From contig NZ_CP149787.1 of the NCBI RefSeq assembly GCF_037914945.1, positions 1,798,001 to 1,862,000 of the forward strand: 64,000 bases of DNA, written 5' to 3'. The position numbers were made by a program, and so were the translations under genes. The notes under the pieces were generated by a model that was not told the origin of the DNA, made no database searches, and worked only from the letters and a program-made list of their open reading frames with translations. This DNA is from Haloterrigena sp. KLK7 (lineage in GTDB: Archaea; Halobacteriota; Halobacteria; Halobacteriales; Natrialbaceae). Positions 12,992 to 20,395 of the stretch are shown here, piece after piece; position 1 is the stretch's first letter, and every line of letters starts with the position of its first letter.

Positions 12992-13121
12992 GCGGCCGCG
13001 ATCCCGGTGCCGGCAACTGTCGAGTGGCACCCACTCGAGGACGGCCGGAACGCAATCGCGACCGACGTCCGTTCGTTCACGGTCGAAGGAATTACCTCTA
13101 TTCACGATAGTTCAGTGACCA

Positions 13122-13814
13122 ATGATCCCCGGCTCCGTCCCGGCCATCATCCTCGCCGTTCTCGCCCTCGTCGTCCTCGTGGCGCTCGTCGCCGTCGTGA
13201 GCTCGCTGTCCCGACTCCTGTTGCGACTCCTCGCGGCACCCGGTGTCGTCGTCCACGAGTTCGCCCACGAGCAGGTCTGTCACCTCGTTGGGGTCCCCGT
13301 CGCCGAGGTGGCCTATTTCCGGTTCGGCGATCCGCCGGGATACGTCCGCCACGCCCAGCCCGGCCGGTACCGCGACTCGTTCGCGATCAGCGTCGCCCCG
13401 TTTCTCGTCAATACCCTCGTCTCGGTCGCGGTCTTTCTCGGGTTCGCCGCGCTCGCGTCGTCGCTGGGAATCGCGGACGCCCTCGCCCTCGCGACCGCCG
13501 ACCCGACCGCGGCGGTGACCGCGCTCCGTGATCGTCTCGCGGCGGCCTCGAGCGGCGCGCTCGCGCTTACGGCCGCGCTGGGATGGCTCGGCCTCGCGGT
13601 CGGGGTGCAGGCGTTCCCGAGCACCGGCGACGCGTACACGCTCTGGACGCGCTCCCGGTCGGAGTGGCGCCGGACGCCGGTCGTCCTGCTCGGCGTCCCC
13701 GTCGTCGCCGTGATCTACCTCGCGAACCTGCTCTCGTGGCTGTGGGCCGACGTCCTGTACGCGCTGGGGCTCTGTCTCCTCGCGTTCTACGCGGTCGGCG
13801 GACTCGGGTTCTGA
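13122..13814 (+). CDS. M50-like membrane metalloprotease
   Basis: 230 residues with about five membrane helices. An HExxH zinc motif lies at the end of the first hydrophobic region (VVHEFAHEQVCHL), as in M50-type or DUF3267-like intramembrane proteases. A candidate third ligand region (PSTGDAYTLW) lies before the last two helices. It is the smallest of three M50-like genes in the window and has no PDZ or CBS domain. Substrate unknown. Confidence 0.75.
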   Translation: MIPGSVPAIILAVLALVVLVALVAVVSSLSRLLLRLLAAPGVVVHEFAHEQVCHLVGVPVAEVAYFRFGDPPGYVRHAQPGRYRDSFAISVAPFLVNTLVSVAVFLGFAALASSLGIADALALATADPTAAVTALRDRLAAASSGALALTAALGWLGLAVGVQAFPSTGDAYTLWTRSRSEWRRTPVVLLGVPVVAVIYLANLLSWLWADVLYALGLCLLAFYAVGGLGF

Positions 13815-13953: not shown

Positions 13954-14835
13954 ATGAACGCAGACGCCGTCGTGTTAGACGTCGACGGAGTGCTCGTCGA
14001 CGTCGCCGACTCCTACCGACGCGCGATCGTCGACTCCGTCGAGCGCGTCTACGACCGAACGATCCGCAAGGCCGACATCCAGCAGTTCAAGGACGCCGGC
14101 GGGTTCAACAACGACTGGGAACTCACCTACGCCGCCGCGCTCTACGTGCTCGCCACGAGCGAGGGATACGGCGAGTCGATCGACGACTTCACGGACGAGA
14201 TCGCCGCCCGCGGCGGCGGCCTCGAGGCCGCCGAGGACGCGATCCGCGCCGACCTCGGCGCGCGGGCGACCCAGCGCGTCCTCGAGCGGTGGGACCGCGA
14301 GCGGCTCCGCGACGTCTTCCAGCAGCTGTACCTCGGCGCCGACCTCTATCGGGGCCTCGAGGGCGGCGAGCCCGATATCGAGACGCGCGGATTCATCCAC
14401 GACGAACCGGTCCTGCTCGAGGAGGCGACCCGGGACGCCCTCGTCGAGGACGACGACCTCGCAGTCGGCGTACTGACGGGCCGGCCGGCGGCCGAGGCCG
14501 AGATCGCTCTCGAGCGCGTCGGTCTCGAGGCGGTGATCCCCCTCGAGCATCGGTTCACGATGGACGACTGGGAGGAGGGCAAACCCCACCCGCGGGCGCT
14601 GACGACCCTCGCGGAGCGATTCGACGCCGATCGGGTGGTCTTCGTCGGCGACACGCTGGACGACGTCCGGACGGCGAACAACGCCCGTGAGGCGGACCCG
14701 GAGCGGGAGTATCACGGCATCGGCGTCCTCACGGGCGGCCTGACGGGTGCGGAAGGGCGACAGAAGTACGAGGCCGAAGAGGCGTCCGCCGTCCTCGAGT
14801 CGATCAACGAACTCCCGGAACTGCTCGAGTCGTAG
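13954..14835 (+). CDS. HAD-superfamily phosphatase (TIGR01548 type)
   Basis: 293 residues, HAD class IA. Motif I is D9-V-D11-G-V, with the aspartate nucleophile and acid/base. Motif II is the Thr of VLTGRP, motif III the Lys of EEGKPHP, and motif [13 protein letters not shown]. The cap lies between about residues 20 and 170. The TIGR01548 group occurs in archaea and has been linked to histidine biosynthesis, but the substrate is unproven. The start ATG is preceded by a short AT-rich promoter region. Confidence 0.85.
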
Positions 14836-16118: not shown

Positions 16119-16225
16119 AGGTGAGTGACGACGGCGCGGCTAATGGAGGCTGCGTTCTCTCGGATGACTGTCTCGGGCCACAGTTCGACGACTCGAGGAA
16201 ACGGACCGAACGCGCCGCTCGTCCC

Positions 16226-16351
16226 GGCAACGGGGAGTGCCACACCCTCCCCAGCCGATTCGCTCGTTCGCTCTGCTCACTCGCTCATCCCTCGCGCGCT
16301 CGTATCGACCGCCCTCGTTTTCACTCGGACGGTCGACAGCGCGCGCCACCG
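16226..16351. repeat. Dispersed repeat, copy A
   Basis: Shares with copy B (20251-20374) the block GGCAACGGGG, the next block GCCACACCCTCCCCAGCCGA, a run of CGCTCGTTCG-type words, CATCCCTCGCGC, and an end block AGCGCGCGCCACCG. An internal hairpin pairs TCGACCG (16305-16311) with CGGTCGA (16330-16336). It lies between ugpQ and the LLM gene, outside coding sequence. No target-site duplication or transposase is visible. Confidence 0.75.
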
Positions 16352-16381
16352 CTCTCCAATTGTCCAGTCGGTCTCTCGAGG

Positions 16382-17425
16382 CTATTCGCGCGACTCGAGT
16401 CCGACGGCGTCGGCGAGCAGCTCGTGCGAGCGCAGCGTCGTCTCGGGATCGGCGTGCTGGCTCTGGATCACGACCTCGTCCACGCCGGCCTGGGACGTCA
16501 GTTCCTCGAGGATTTCTCGGGCCGTCGACGGACTGCCGGAGAGGTGGCGGGGCCACTCGCCGGGCGCGATGTCCGTCGACGACATCGGCTCGGGAACCCC
16601 GCCGAGGACGTCGATCGCGCGGTCGACCGACCTGATCGGGAGGCGGTCGACCCGTCCGTTTCGAAGCAGTCGCGACGAGGCCTCGGCGACGGCGCGGAGC
16701 CGCGCGGCCTCCTCGTCGGTCTCGGCGCAGGTCAGGTTTACCGCGATGGCGCCGCGCGGCTCCTCGGGGCTGGCGCCGTGCGCGGCGGGGTCGAAGTGCT
16801 TCCGGTAGGTCTCGAACGCCTGCACGGCCGGTTCGGGGCGGATGAACGCGGCGAAGGAGTACGGCAGTCCCAGTTCGCCGGCGATCTTCGCGCTCGCTGG
16901 ACTCGAGCCGTGGACCCAGATTTCCGGCGCGGAGTCGCCAGCGCGGGGCACCTCGAGGTCGCGGAACGGGTGGTCGCCCTCGAATCCGCCGTAGAGGTGC
17001 TTGACGACCTCGTCGATCTTCTCCGCCTGATCGTCGCCGGTCCGCCGGCGCTGGCTGCGATCCGGCTGGAGGGCGAGATCGCTCGCCGGGTTCCCCGTCG
17101 CCCGCCCCAGTCCGAGGTCGATGCGGTCGGGCTCGAGCGCATCGAGGACGCCGAACGTCTCCGCGACCTTGTACGGGCTGTAGTGGTTCAACAGGACGGT
17201 CCCGGAGCCGACCCGGATGTCCTCGGTCTTCGCGGCCACGTGCGGAATCAGTACCTCCGGCGTCGTGCTCGCGACCGAGTCGGTGAAGTCGTGGTGTTCG
17301 GCCACCCAGAACCGCGAGTAGCCGAGCCGTTCGGCCTGCCGGGCGCGTTCGACCGTGTGTTCGAACGCTTCCGTCGCGGTGCCGTCCTCCGGCATCGGTG
17401 CGAGATCGACGATCGAGAGCTCCAT
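16382..17425 (-). CDS. LLM-class flavin-dependent oxidoreductase
   Basis: 347 residues, luciferase-like TIM barrel. Recognisable stretches are FWVAEHHDF, VGSGTVLLNHYSPYKVAE and DLGLGRATG, which belong to the single-subunit bacterial-luciferase-like group using FMN or F420. An F420:NADP reductase gene lies 0.5 kb away, so reduced F420 is a possible cofactor, but neither the cofactor nor the substrate can be decided from sequence. Length is standard. Confidence 0.9.
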   Translation of the reverse strand: MELSIVDLAPMPEDGTATEAFEHTVERARQAERLGYSRFWVAEHHDFTDSVASTTPEVLIPHVAAKTEDIRVGSGTVLLNHYSPYKVAETFGVLDALEPDRIDLGLGRATGNPASDLALQPDRSQRRRTGDDQAEKIDEVVKHLYGGFEGDHPFRDLEVPRAGDSAPEIWVHGSSPASAKIAGELGLPYSFAAFIRPEPAVQAFETYRKHFDPAAHGASPEEPRGAIAVNLTCAETDEEAARLRAVAEASSRLLRNGRVDRLPIRSVDRAIDVLGGVPEPMSSTDIAPGEWPRHLSGSPSTAREILEELTSQAGVDEVVIQSQHADPETTLRSHELLADAVGLESRE

Positions 17426-17557
17426 ACCGGACGGTGGGGTCAGCGCGGGAAGTGTGTACGCTTTCGGCGAGCCCTTGCCGACTCTCGGTCGGCCGGCGAT
17501 GCCGGGCCGACCACTGACGGCCCAGCATTCACCCCGCTCGCTCCCGAAGTCGCTTCC

Positions 17558-17815
17558 GTGACTGGAACTACCCTCGAGGACGTCGAACGGAGCCTCGATC
17601 GCGCGGCCGACCTCGAGACCGAGGAAGCGGTGTCGGTCCTGCGGACCGCCCGTCAGGACATCGAGGACCTGGGATCCGATCCGGACGTCGACGAACAGCG
17701 ACGGCGGGACCTCGCGGAGCGCCTCGACCAGCGGATCCGCGAGGTGAAAGAGCGCGACGCGTACGACAGCGGACTGGGCGCGGCGATGAATCCCGAAGAC
17801 GACGAAGCGCCCTGA
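17558..17815 (+). CDS. Small acidic helical protein, unknown function
   Basis: 85 residues from GTG 17558. It is strongly charged and helical (LEDVERSLDRAADLE, then RRRDLAERLDQRIREVKER) with an acidic C-terminus. The composition is that of a real haloarchaeal protein. A longer open frame upstream to 16121 is antisense to the LLM gene and is not coding. I do not recognise a domain; a coiled-coil or helical hairpin is likely. Confidence 0.65.
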   Translation: MTGTTLEDVERSLDRAADLETEEAVSVLRTARQDIEDLGSDPDVDEQRRRDLAERLDQRIREVKERDAYDSGLGAAMNPEDDEAP

Positions 17816-17941
17816 GGCACTCGGGATCGGACCGTCGGTCCGCGAGTGAGTCGATCCGTCCGACGCCGTGGCCGTCCGAGAACCCGGCGAGATCGGCCGG
17901 CCTCCACCCCTTTTATTCGGGAGCCGTCCGCAGAGTCGGGT

Positions 17942-18610
17942 ATGCGAATCGCACTACTCGGCGGAACCGGCGATATCGGGCAGGGGCTGGCCCTGCGCTT
18001 TGCACGCGATACGGACCACGAAGTACTCATCGGCTCGCGAGACCCCGAGAAGGCCCGCGACGCGGTCGAGACCTACGAGGGGAATCTCGAGTCCCGCGGC
18101 GCCGACGCGGACGTCAAGGGCTTCGCGAACGAGATGGCGGCCGACCGAGCCGACGTCGTCATCCTCAGCGTGCCGCCGTACTACGCCGGCGACACCGTCG
18201 ACGCGGTCGCGGACAGCCTCGATTCGGACACGATCCTGGTCACCCCCGCGGTCGGCATGCAGGGCGACGAGGACGGCCTCCACTATCACCCGCCGGGAAC
18301 CGGCAGCGTCACCGAACTGGTCGCCGACCGCGCGCCCGACGAGGTACCAGTGGTCGGCGCCTTCCACAACCTCGCGGCCGACGCGCTCTCGGACCTCGAC
18401 AACGACCTCGATCTGGACACGCTCCTCGTCGCGGACGACGACGACGCCAAGGAGACCGTCCGCAACCTCGCCAACGAGATCGAGGGCCTGCGCGCGCTCG
18501 ACGTCGGCCCCCTCGCGAACGCCGCGGAAGTCGAGAGCGTCACGCCGCTGGTCATCAACATCGCGAAGTACAACGACGACCTGCACGACGTCGGCGTTAA
18601 ATTCCACTAA
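17942..18610 (+). CDS. npdG: F420H2:NADP+ oxidoreductase
   Basis: 222 residues from ATG 17942. It transfers hydride between reduced F420 and NADP. The N-terminal Rossmann motif is LLGGTGDIGQG, followed by the NADP-selecting IGSRDPEKA. VTPAVGM, VVGAFHNLAA and the C-terminal AEVESVTPLVINIA are typical of the Fno/NpdG family. Size fits. It probably supplies F420H2, or NADPH, to oxidoreductases such as the LLM enzyme upstream. Confidence 0.92.
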   Translation: MRIALLGGTGDIGQGLALRFARDTDHEVLIGSRDPEKARDAVETYEGNLESRGADADVKGFANEMAADRADVVILSVPPYYAGDTVDAVADSLDSDTILVTPAVGMQGDEDGLHYHPPGTGSVTELVADRAPDEVPVVGAFHNLAADALSDLDNDLDLDTLLVADDDDAKETVRNLANEIEGLRALDVGPLANAAEVESVTPLVINIAKYNDDLHDVGVKFH

Positions 18611-18626
18611 CGAACTTTTACTCTGT

Positions 18627-18708
18627 GTGCGGTCGCGGAGCGACCGCACTCGGTAAAACTTCGATGAAAAGCACTCCTCCTTCCCCTTCAGCCGCGCACA
18701 GCGCGGCT
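18627..18708. repeat. Pair of strong GC hairpins downstream of npdG
   Basis: Hairpin 1 pairs GTGCGGTCGC (18627-18636) with GCGACCGCAC (18640-18649) around a 3-nt loop. Hairpin 2 pairs AGCCGCGC (18690-18697) with GCGCGGCT (18701-18708). Between them lies an AT-richer link. They follow the npdG stop by 17 bases and could terminate or stabilise its mRNA. The context CGAAAGCC-hairpin, read on the minus strand, resembles the hairpins at 31.6 kb, so a dispersed element is possible. Confidence 0.55.
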
Positions 18709-18803
18709 TTCGGGTCAGTCGTCGGCCCGCTCGCTCCCTCTGGTCGCTCGCGGTGACCGTTCCTACGCCACCGCTTTTGATCCTACGCGACCTACGGAGA
18801 ACC

Positions 18804-19766
18804 ATGCGAATCGTCACGACGCTCCCCTCGGCGACCGAAACCGTGGCCGCGCTCGGCCTCGAGCCGGTCGGCGTTTCCCACGAGTGCGACTACCCGCCCG
18901 CCGTCGAGTCGCTGCCGTCGGTCACCGACTCGAGGATCGACGCCGACGCCTCGAGTAGCGAGATCGACCAGCAGGTGCTCGAGACCGCCGACGACGGGGG
19001 CGTCTACGACGTCGACACGGACCTCCTCGAGTCCCTCGAGCCGGACCTGATCGTCACGCAGGGGATGTGCGACGTCTGCGCGGTCGACGAGGTCGTCATG
19101 GCGGACGCCGTCGAAGAAATTGATGCGGACCCCGAGATCCTGACCACGGACCCCCACAGCGTCGCGGACGTCCTCGAGGACCTCGAGCGAATCGGCCGCG
19201 CCACGGGACGCGAGGAACGCGCTCGAGCGGTCCGCGCCGACCTCGAGTCCCGGATCGATGCGATCCGAGGACGAACCGCCGAGGCCGACCTCGCGGGCGA
19301 CGACCGTCCCCGAGTAGCGATCTTCGACTGGACCGACCCCGTCATGGTCGCGGGCCACTGGACGACCGATCTGGTCGAGTGGGCCGGTGGCGAGTACGGG
19401 CTGGCCGACGCGGGGGACCGCTCGAGTCCGCGCGAGTGGTCGGAAATCCGCGAGTACGACCCCGAACTGATCGTCGTCGCGCCCTGCGGCTTCGGCCTCG
19501 AGCAGACCGCCGCGAACGCCGCGGACCTCACCGAGCGCGAGGGGTGGGACGATCTCACTGCCGTCCGCGAGGGCCGCGTCTGGGCGATGGACGGCCACCA
19601 CTACCTGAATCGGCCCGGCCCGCGGCTGGTGGACACTCTCGAGGCGCTGGCGCCGATCGTTCAGCCGGACTTATTCGACGAGGAAACACCGCCCGTCGCG
19701 CTCGAGAAGATCGCGGTGCCGTTCGAGCGGGTGACGGAGCGCCCCGATCTCGAGGCGGAGGCGTAG
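18804..19766 (+). CDS. btuF: Cobalamin-binding BtuF-like protein
   Basis: 320 residues from ATG 18804, with a class III periplasmic-binding-protein fold: LPSATETVAALGLEPVGVSH, DLIVTQGMC, and a C-terminal lobe with GHWTTDLVEWAGG. It resembles BtuF and related cobalamin-binding proteins of haloarchaea. No signal peptide or lipobox is present, unlike a true exported binding protein, and no btuC or btuD is adjacent. It may therefore act inside the cell. The stop is six bases from the next gene, so the two are probably co-transcribed. Confidence 0.82.
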   Translation: MRIVTTLPSATETVAALGLEPVGVSHECDYPPAVESLPSVTDSRIDADASSSEIDQQVLETADDGGVYDVDTDLLESLEPDLIVTQGMCDVCAVDEVVMADAVEEIDADPEILTTDPHSVADVLEDLERIGRATGREERARAVRADLESRIDAIRGRTAEADLAGDDRPRVAIFDWTDPVMVAGHWTTDLVEWAGGEYGLADAGDRSSPREWSEIREYDPELIVVAPCGFGLEQTAANAADLTEREGWDDLTAVREGRVWAMDGHHYLNRPGPRLVDTLEALAPIVQPDLFDEETPPVALEKIAVPFERVTERPDLEAEA

Positions 19767-19772
19767 CTACCG

Positions 19773-20216
19773 GTGACCGGTTCCGATCCCGAACTCGTCG
19801 TCCCGGCCGAGATTCGTGACGCGATCCTCGAGCGCGCTCGTGAGGGCGCTCCCGAGGAGAGCTGCGGGATCTTCGGCGGCGACTTCGAGCCCGAGGGACG
19901 GAGTCGGGTTCGCTCGCAGTACCCTGCCGAAAACGTCGCCGAGACGCCGCGAACGCGGTATCGAATCGATCCCGAGGAACAACTCGCGATCTTCGAACGC
20001 CTCGAGGACCGCGGCGAGGAGATCGTCGGCTTCTACCACTCCCATCCCCGCGGGCCGCCGCGACTGAGCGCGACTGATCGAGCGCAGGCGACGTGGCCCG
20101 ATCGGTCCTATCTGATCGTCTCGCTCGAGCCCCTCGAGATCGGGTCGTGGCGATGGCGTGAAGCGGAAGCGAGTGGCGAGAAACGGTTTACGCGCGAACG
20201 GATCGTACTCGAGTGA
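19773..20216 (+). CDS. JAMM/MPN+ metalloprotease, desampylase-like
   Basis: 147 residues from GTG 19773. The JAMM zinc site is complete: glutamate in PEES near residue 29, then H89-S-H91-x10-D102 in FYHSHPRGPPRLSATD. It matches HvJAMM1-type desampylases, which remove ubiquitin-like SAMP proteins from targets and free SAMP for sulfur transfer. Length is normal. It follows the btuF-like gene closely and converges on the sulfatase gene with repeat B between. Confidence 0.9.
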   Translation: MTGSDPELVVPAEIRDAILERAREGAPEESCGIFGGDFEPEGRSRVRSQYPAENVAETPRTRYRIDPEEQLAIFERLEDRGEEIVGFYHSHPRGPPRLSATDRAQATWPDRSYLIVSLEPLEIGSWRWREAEASGEKRFTRERIVLE

Positions 20217-20250
20217 ACGCCGTCGGTCGCGACGAGCGCCCTGCTATCGT

Positions 20251-20374
20251 GGCAACGGGGAATGCCACACCCTCCCCAGCCGATTCGTTCGCTCGCACGC
20301 TCGCTCACTCATCCCTCGCGCAGTTTCGTGCCGCGGTTCGTTATTCACTCACCGCGGCACAGCGCGCGCCACCG
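20251..20374. repeat. Dispersed repeat, copy B
   Basis: Second copy of the element at 16226-16351, same orientation. Its internal hairpin pairs GTGCCGCGGT (20328-20337) with ACCGCGGCAC (20351-20360), with loop TCGTTATTCACTC. Copy A has the related loop word TCGTTTTCACTC but an entirely different stem, so pairing is kept while sequence changes. It sits in the convergent gap between the desampylase and the sulfatase. Confidence 0.75.
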
Positions 20375-20395
20375 TACATATCTCGGCTGGAACGG

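Follow-up and report, generated by a model that had tools for sequence, protein, structure and literature searches.

A widespread family of structured, strand-specific repeats in haloarchaeal genomes

The PATE, SMR and MITE repeats of Haloquadratum walsbyi are non-coding and transposase-free, measure about 110 bases and up, occur in tens to hundreds of copies, and contain palindromes as well as modules that have been invaded or exchanged (PMC3119063). Bacterial REP/REPIN and BIME repeats combine many intergenic copies with hairpins and inverted pairs (PMC3116915, PMC3733652, PMC8266576). Comparative genomics has also yielded candidate RNAs, such as the STAXI motif, that are defined by covariation of a one-strand fold; the authors of that work discussed whether the motif acts as RNA or as single-stranded DNA (PMC2864571). 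Here we describe a repeat family that resembles each of these groups in the traits just named, the ambiguity between RNA and DNA included. Two of its copies lie in a stretch of 64,000 nucleotides from Haloterrigena sp. KLK7 (NZ_CP149787.1, positions 1,798,001 to 1,862,000; hereafter the window), and all window coordinates below count from its first base. The family is real, structured, strand-specific and widespread. It is apparently previously unreported: we found no report of its core sequence, or of such a haloarchaeal repeat or structured RNA family, in the open-access literature, and Rfam 15 gave no gathering-score match in the window and, at permissive thresholds, only sub-threshold noise at four copy loci.

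A dispersed repeat whose complementary strand folds

The original prediction, made from the letters of the window, was of a two-copy repeat (16226-16351 and 20251-20374) with hairpin stems that differ in sequence yet pair perfectly. Both repeats are present where they were placed: they share an identical 24-base core (16239-16262 and 20264-20287) that occurs nowhere else in the window (no match being expected by chance), and the copies can be aligned end to end, with a left boundary about 20 bases beyond the start first given. In copy 1, TCGACCG (16305-16311) pairs perfectly with CGGTCGA (16330-16336), as does GTGCCGCGGT (20328-20337) with ACCGCGGCAC (20351-20360) in copy 2; the arms are complementary within each copy but not between the two. 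The repeat is not confined to two copies, however. Allowing up to three mismatches, the core has 89 matches in the 4.64-Mb genome, all of them on the 3.84-Mb chromosome and none on the other replicons (0.8 Mb; p 4.5e-8 if spread by length), and the reversed pattern has none.

Selection for structure rather than sequence, as had been proposed, is strongly supported by the collected copies. Across 128 apical hairpins, 88.7% of arm pairs are Watson-Crick; the figure drops to 33.8% if each 5' arm is combined with a 3' arm shuffled from the other copies. Most arm positions show all four Watson-Crick types. The original prediction was correct in kind, but made on the wrong strand, and its hairpin is one of three or four. 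On the strand first described, arm mismatches comprise 37 A.C and 16 G.T (p 0.005), so that G.U exceeds A.C on the complement. Two pairs of P1, the helix that closes the apical hairpin P2, show the same strand bias (Fisher p 0.009 and 7e-5): on the strand first described, one has GC 56, AC 62, AT 8 and GT 0, and the other has CG 111, CA 5, TA 4 and TG 1. When 68 copies are aligned on the complement, the cells of the pairs chosen for P1 to P3 hold 1291 Watson-Crick, 154 G.U, 15 A.C and 48 other combinations; at two P1/P2 positions no pair is as frequent as G.U, and the P1 column pair 13-63 reads GU 39, GC 27 and AU 2. Because G.U outnumbers A.C on the minus strand to this extent, the fold is strand-specific, and it belongs to the complement of the strand first described.

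With P4 included (27 pairs in the 68 copies), 95.7% of combinations are standard, compared to 81.6% after shuffling (0 of 500 shuffles as high); the covariation score is 0.42, compared to 0.18 for shuffled alignments; structures slid along the alignment are at most 44% paired; and 18 of the 27 pairs have changed on both sides. Since the structure was derived from the same 68 sequences, the slid control is a lenient one, a weakness that affects neither the shuffles nor the strand asymmetry. Covariation in the collected copies, the check suggested with the original prediction, is therefore far above both kinds of control and does not refute it.

Read along the strand first described, the element begins with GAAnCGAAGCGTTCTGCTATCGTGGCAACGGGGAAT(Y)GCCAC followed by the core, CCACRCCCTCCCCARCCGATTC, then passes through a variable tract rich in TCGCTCACTC, the motif ATCCCTCGCRC and the apical hairpin, and ends in CAGCGCGCGCCACCGCA. 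Copies with both ends (n = 83) are 99 to 306 bases long, typically 120-130; in the longer ones, additional modules are inserted at fixed points, each module forming a perfect hairpin whose sequence varies. On the complement, the low-complexity-looking TCGCTCACTC tract becomes a hairpin, P3, of the form GAU [GA] NN [GA] NN ([GA] NN) loop, mirrored on the other arm. Its G.A pairs are predicted to be tandem sheared pairs that alternate with two-base-pair steps, like the rungs of a ladder. The tandem G.A/A.G positions are retained in 94, 90, 91 and 90 of the 95 copies with a short P3, and in 67-68 of the 68 aligned copies at two rungs. In the same 95 copies the steps between them covary (first two pairs: GC 79, AU 6, GU 4, and CG 70, UG 10, UA 9, GC 4; next pairs: GC 43, AU 32, CG 12, GU 4, and CG 58, UA 19, GC 6), with variants that include G.U but not A.C. 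Of 136 hairpins, 93 have a ladder-like arrangement in the P2 apical loop as well, where a tandem G.A is followed by two covarying pairs and by a tetra- or pentaloop that begins with G; the covarying pairs there are Watson-Crick in 171 cases, G.U in 10 and A.C in 1. Neither a cruciform nor template-switch correction would be expected to leave G.A mismatches conserved on a single strand. The fold also includes a nearly invariant, single-stranded G-rich strip. Coordinates of all parts in the two window copies are given in Table 1.

Table 1. Parts of the element in the two window copies
Feature	Coordinates	Strand	Basis
Copy 1, whole element	16206..16354	- (folded strand)	cmsearch 129.4 bits, E 1.8e-35
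Copy 1, P1 helix closing P2	16294..16344 (arms 16294-16298 and 16340-16344)	-	covariation; P1 columns vary by G.U only
Copy 1, P2 apical hairpin (originally predicted)	16305..16336	-	outer arms perfect; covariation over 68 copies
Copy 1, P3 ladder hairpin, GAU [GA] GC [GA] GU [GA] GC loop, mirrored	16257..16289	-	tandem G.A/A.G and covarying two-base-pair steps
Copy 1, invariant G-rich strip (GGCUGGGGAGGGUGUGG on - strand)	16240..16256	-	columns near-invariant; retained even in distant families
Copy 1, P4 (UGGC..GCCA), 3' part of element; one end pair lost here	16227..16243	-	family 95% paired, little covariation
Copy 2, whole element	20232..20377	-	cmsearch 151.7 bits, E 8.3e-42
Copy 2, P1 helix closing P2	20318..20367 (arms 20318-20322 and 20363-20367)	-	as for copy 1 P1
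Copy 2, P2 apical hairpin (originally predicted)	20328..20360	-	perfect 10-base-pair stem; orthologue stems compensated
Copy 2, P3 ladder hairpin	20282..20313	-	ladder pattern; compensatory changes at orthologous locus
Copy 2, invariant G-rich strip	20265..20281	-	columns near-invariant; retained even in distant families
Copy 2, P4 (UGGC..GCCA)	20250..20267	-	family 95% paired, little covariation

Placement, descent and spread of the copies

Comparison with five congeners identified orthologues of copy 1 in all five and of copy 2 in four. At the copy 2 locus, three species have P2 stems of different sequence (GTGCCGCGGT/ACCGCGGCAC, GTGACGTGGT/ACCACGTCAC and GTGCCGTGGT/ACCACGGCAC), and the stems of two further orthologues are imperfect. 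The third ladder pair at this locus is U-A in our strain, U.G in G002, a wobble intermediate, and C-G in G003, G004 and G005. Identity at the locus is 93% in the core and 81% across the whole element, and the intergenic flanks are about 70% identical. At other loci the inner modules differ wholly between species while position and orientation are conserved. Gene conversion between copies could contribute to evolution in place, but a rare GAC/GUC closing pair, which three species have in common at one locus, speaks for local descent. At two intergenic sites (13053-13228 and 14345-14528 of locus L174), the present genome carries an element where four congeners (L179-L182) have a short open reading frame.

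Nearly all copies (82 of 83) are intergenic, according to gene calls made with a codon-usage scorer. By neighboring genes, 42 of the 83 lie at convergent, 32 at tandem and 9 at divergent sites; the convergent share is three-fold that expected from intergenic space in comparable stretches (16-18%; p about 1e-11), and divergent sites are depleted.

Copies are mosaics, in which long, near-identical segments are common to copies 2.6 kb to 1.3 Mb apart and the remainder differs. Examples are the pairs at 2325537/3534743 (1.2 Mb apart) and 2198074/2200724 (2.6 kb apart), with 130-238 bases in common; the 96-97% identity of such shared segments suggests recent exchange between dispersed copies. Full-length paralogues are at most 97% identical, and mostly below 90%. 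Most copies are single; the genome has 11 close pairs, each of them inverted and with the two left ends facing (for example, 703151-703170 on the minus strand and about 703320 on the plus strand), and their spacers are unrelated. At least one pair in congener G005 (165652 +, 165775 -) is arranged the opposite way.

Counted with the core pattern, the six congeners have 43-140 copies each and other genera none to about 50, and near-identical cores are found in named Natrinema and Haloterrigena species. With a covariance model, R1, matches were obtained for 178 of the 292 class genomes sampled, and for 47 of 77 genera; the scan scored at most about ten candidates per genome and thus reports presence, not copy number. 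All matches listed from a phylum sample of 197 genomes fall in the same order. Some weak matches (20-30 bits) in distant genera may be chance hits that have only the ladder in common. Phages and viral contigs contain no copies and plasmids almost none, and we rejected viruses and plasmids as carriers. The spread is deep but patchy, with several genera having one to three matches only, at conserved loci. In genus g47, one match lies between genes resembling the cobalamin genes cbiF and cbiG (named from sequence) with the folded strand antisense to the operon, and another lies beside a radB-like gene with the folded strand sense; in genus g54, a match follows an NADH-oxidase-like gene. Few-copy members share the cbiF-cbiG site as one conserved place (L228, L231, L234, L241 and L243-L245).

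The window also contains a second dispersed family (18605-18760), with 36 BLAST matches in the genome (pieces counted apart) and more in congeners. The complement of this family, too, contains a GA-ladder hairpin (CCGC GA GC GA AC GGA GU GA GC GA GCGG in one copy), and most copies tested are matched by model positions 69-95; thus, the ladder is common to both families.

A proposed folded RNA and its rivals

The family looks like a structured RNA or single-stranded DNA. Of the explanations considered, we favor a structured RNA that acts where each copy sits, which in our judgment is about as likely as not. RNA is favored because the G.U rate is high, because selection appears to act in place, and because the G-rich strip is near-invariant although single-stranded. 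What is maintained is the fold of one strand, comprising the P1-P2 apical hairpin with its closing helix, the P3 ladder, the G-rich strip and, in the present lineage, P4. Since no promoter accompanies the element, such an RNA would arise by read-through or antisense transcription; its ladder and strip might be recognized by a protein or by the ribosome or RNA-decay machinery, and it would act in place, most likely on the transcript ends or overlap of convergent genes.

Several observations weigh against a folded RNA of this kind. No TATA-like box was found upstream of the folded strand in any of the 83 copies, and AT content there is flat; the flat profile is the better evidence, since the TATA-like pattern recovered just 1 of 8 control gene starts. 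An own promoter, which we considered, is therefore not among the parts found in the copies. Among copies in tandem gene pairs, 28 have the folded strand in sense and 39 in antisense orientation; given this lack of preference, we rejected a sense 3' untranslated-region element of the neighboring gene. The fold is almost equally intact where no neighbor reads the strand (P3, 96.1% compared to 96.3%; P2 slightly weaker, p 0.03). Folding energy lies only weakly below that of shuffled sequences (mean z -1.3) and is uninformative at this G+C content. The loops point the same way: P2 tetraloops are frequently GNYA rather than GNRA, and P3 triloops are mostly C-GNA-G (GNA in 47 of 78), a loop that is extraordinarily stable in DNA.

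These loops, together with the absence of a promoter and of a preferred orientation to genes, would suit a non-autonomous mobile element active in the form of a folded DNA single strand, as is the case for REPINs, IS200/IS605 ends and integron attC sites. A recombinase acting in trans would read the one-strand hairpins, and present copies would mostly be old insertions at harmless convergent ends. The dispersed, patchy and numerous copies, their mosaicism and the uniformly inverted close pairs fit as well. We nevertheless consider this explanation unlikely, if the most serious of the rivals. An intact IS200/IS605 TnpA (PF01797) is absent from three of the six congeners, these three holding 43-71 copies each, and a fourth has a fragment only; we therefore rejected TnpA as a general mobilizer. 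Reverse transcriptase (PF00078) is found in none of the six, which likewise speaks against SINE-like retroelement mobilization as a general explanation, and among 92 copies there is no long one with a transposase that could be an autonomous parent. No clean empty site was found in orthologous regions of the six species; sites without the element also lack flanking sequence, and the flanks are too diverged to reveal a target site duplication of the kind left by MITEs. The paralogue identities show little sign of recent spread, plasmids and viruses are nearly or wholly devoid of copies, and continuing compensatory change in place would not be expected of dead insertions. Spread of the copies seems now to be inactive or very slow.

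Could the stems instead be neutral, kept perfect by mutation? Template switching at quasi-palindromes is known to generate hairpins and to preserve them, through changes that look compensatory (PMC8794818), and segments are exchanged between copies, in keeping with a share of gene conversion. Yet template switching yields arms that are perfect on both strands, whereas here nearly every copy conserves the tandem G.A mismatches, and the tenfold excess of G.U over A.C is confined to one strand. This asymmetry largely refutes the neutral account, which we regard as improbable. A chromosome landmark acting at the DNA level between convergent genes through an extruded hairpin seems to us very doubtful as well. 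REP and BIME prefer gene ends, as does the present family, and have been proposed as gyrase, nucleoid-protein or terminator sites; the convergent enrichment, the divergent depletion and the lack of copies on the smaller replicons would fit such a role. Extrusion of a cruciform, however, involves both strands and would not be expected to favor wobble and G.A pairs on one of them, and a landmark is difficult to reconcile with genera that have just one to three copies.

A broader proposal, which we see as evenly poised between right and wrong, is a previously undescribed, class-wide haloarchaeal element built of ladder hairpins of tandem G.A and two-base-pair steps, selected at each locus as one folded strand that lacks a promoter, a transposase and a reverse transcriptase, and sharing its ladder with a second family. 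If true, the known structured nucleic acids would gain an abundant family that occurs in about 60% of sampled haloarchaeal genomes and has no entry in Rfam, and low-complexity-looking TCGCTCGCTC intergenic sequence would become interpretable as structure. The tandem G.A ladder would be an architecture whose recognition and function are directly testable, and the roughly 90 dispersed copies would provide a case for separating selection in place from mobility.

Relation to described repeats and candidate RNAs

PATE palindromes are akin to the ends of IS605-type elements, and terminal inverted repeats are a feature of SMRs (PMC3119063); neither feature was found in the present family, whose two ends share only GTGGC inverted, less than the terminal repeats of a MITE. 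We rejected a PATE-like IS200/IS605 derivative because TnpA is missing from congeners as described above, although the palindromes were not compared directly with IS605 ends. The strand-specific fold, its covariation and the tandem G.A pairs further set the family apart from the Haloquadratum repeats (PMC3119063).

As in REP/REPIN, close pairs are inverted. Unlike REP/REPIN and BIME (PMC3116915, PMC3733652, PMC8266576), the present element shows no GTAG/CGTC tag at the foot of its stem and is much longer, with multiple hairpins. No RAYT-like (Y1) transposase is found in half of the congeners, among them ones holding many copies. The Haloquadratum repeats and REP/REPIN are the closest described counterparts; the family behaves as a dispersed hairpin repeat but is not assigned to either group.

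A one-strand fold with covariation above controls and tolerance of G.U is what is found in structured noncoding RNAs, and in this the family comes close to candidates such as the STAXI motif (PMC2864571). From these it differs in being absent from Rfam 15, in being dispersed in up to 140 copies and in having the G.A ladder.

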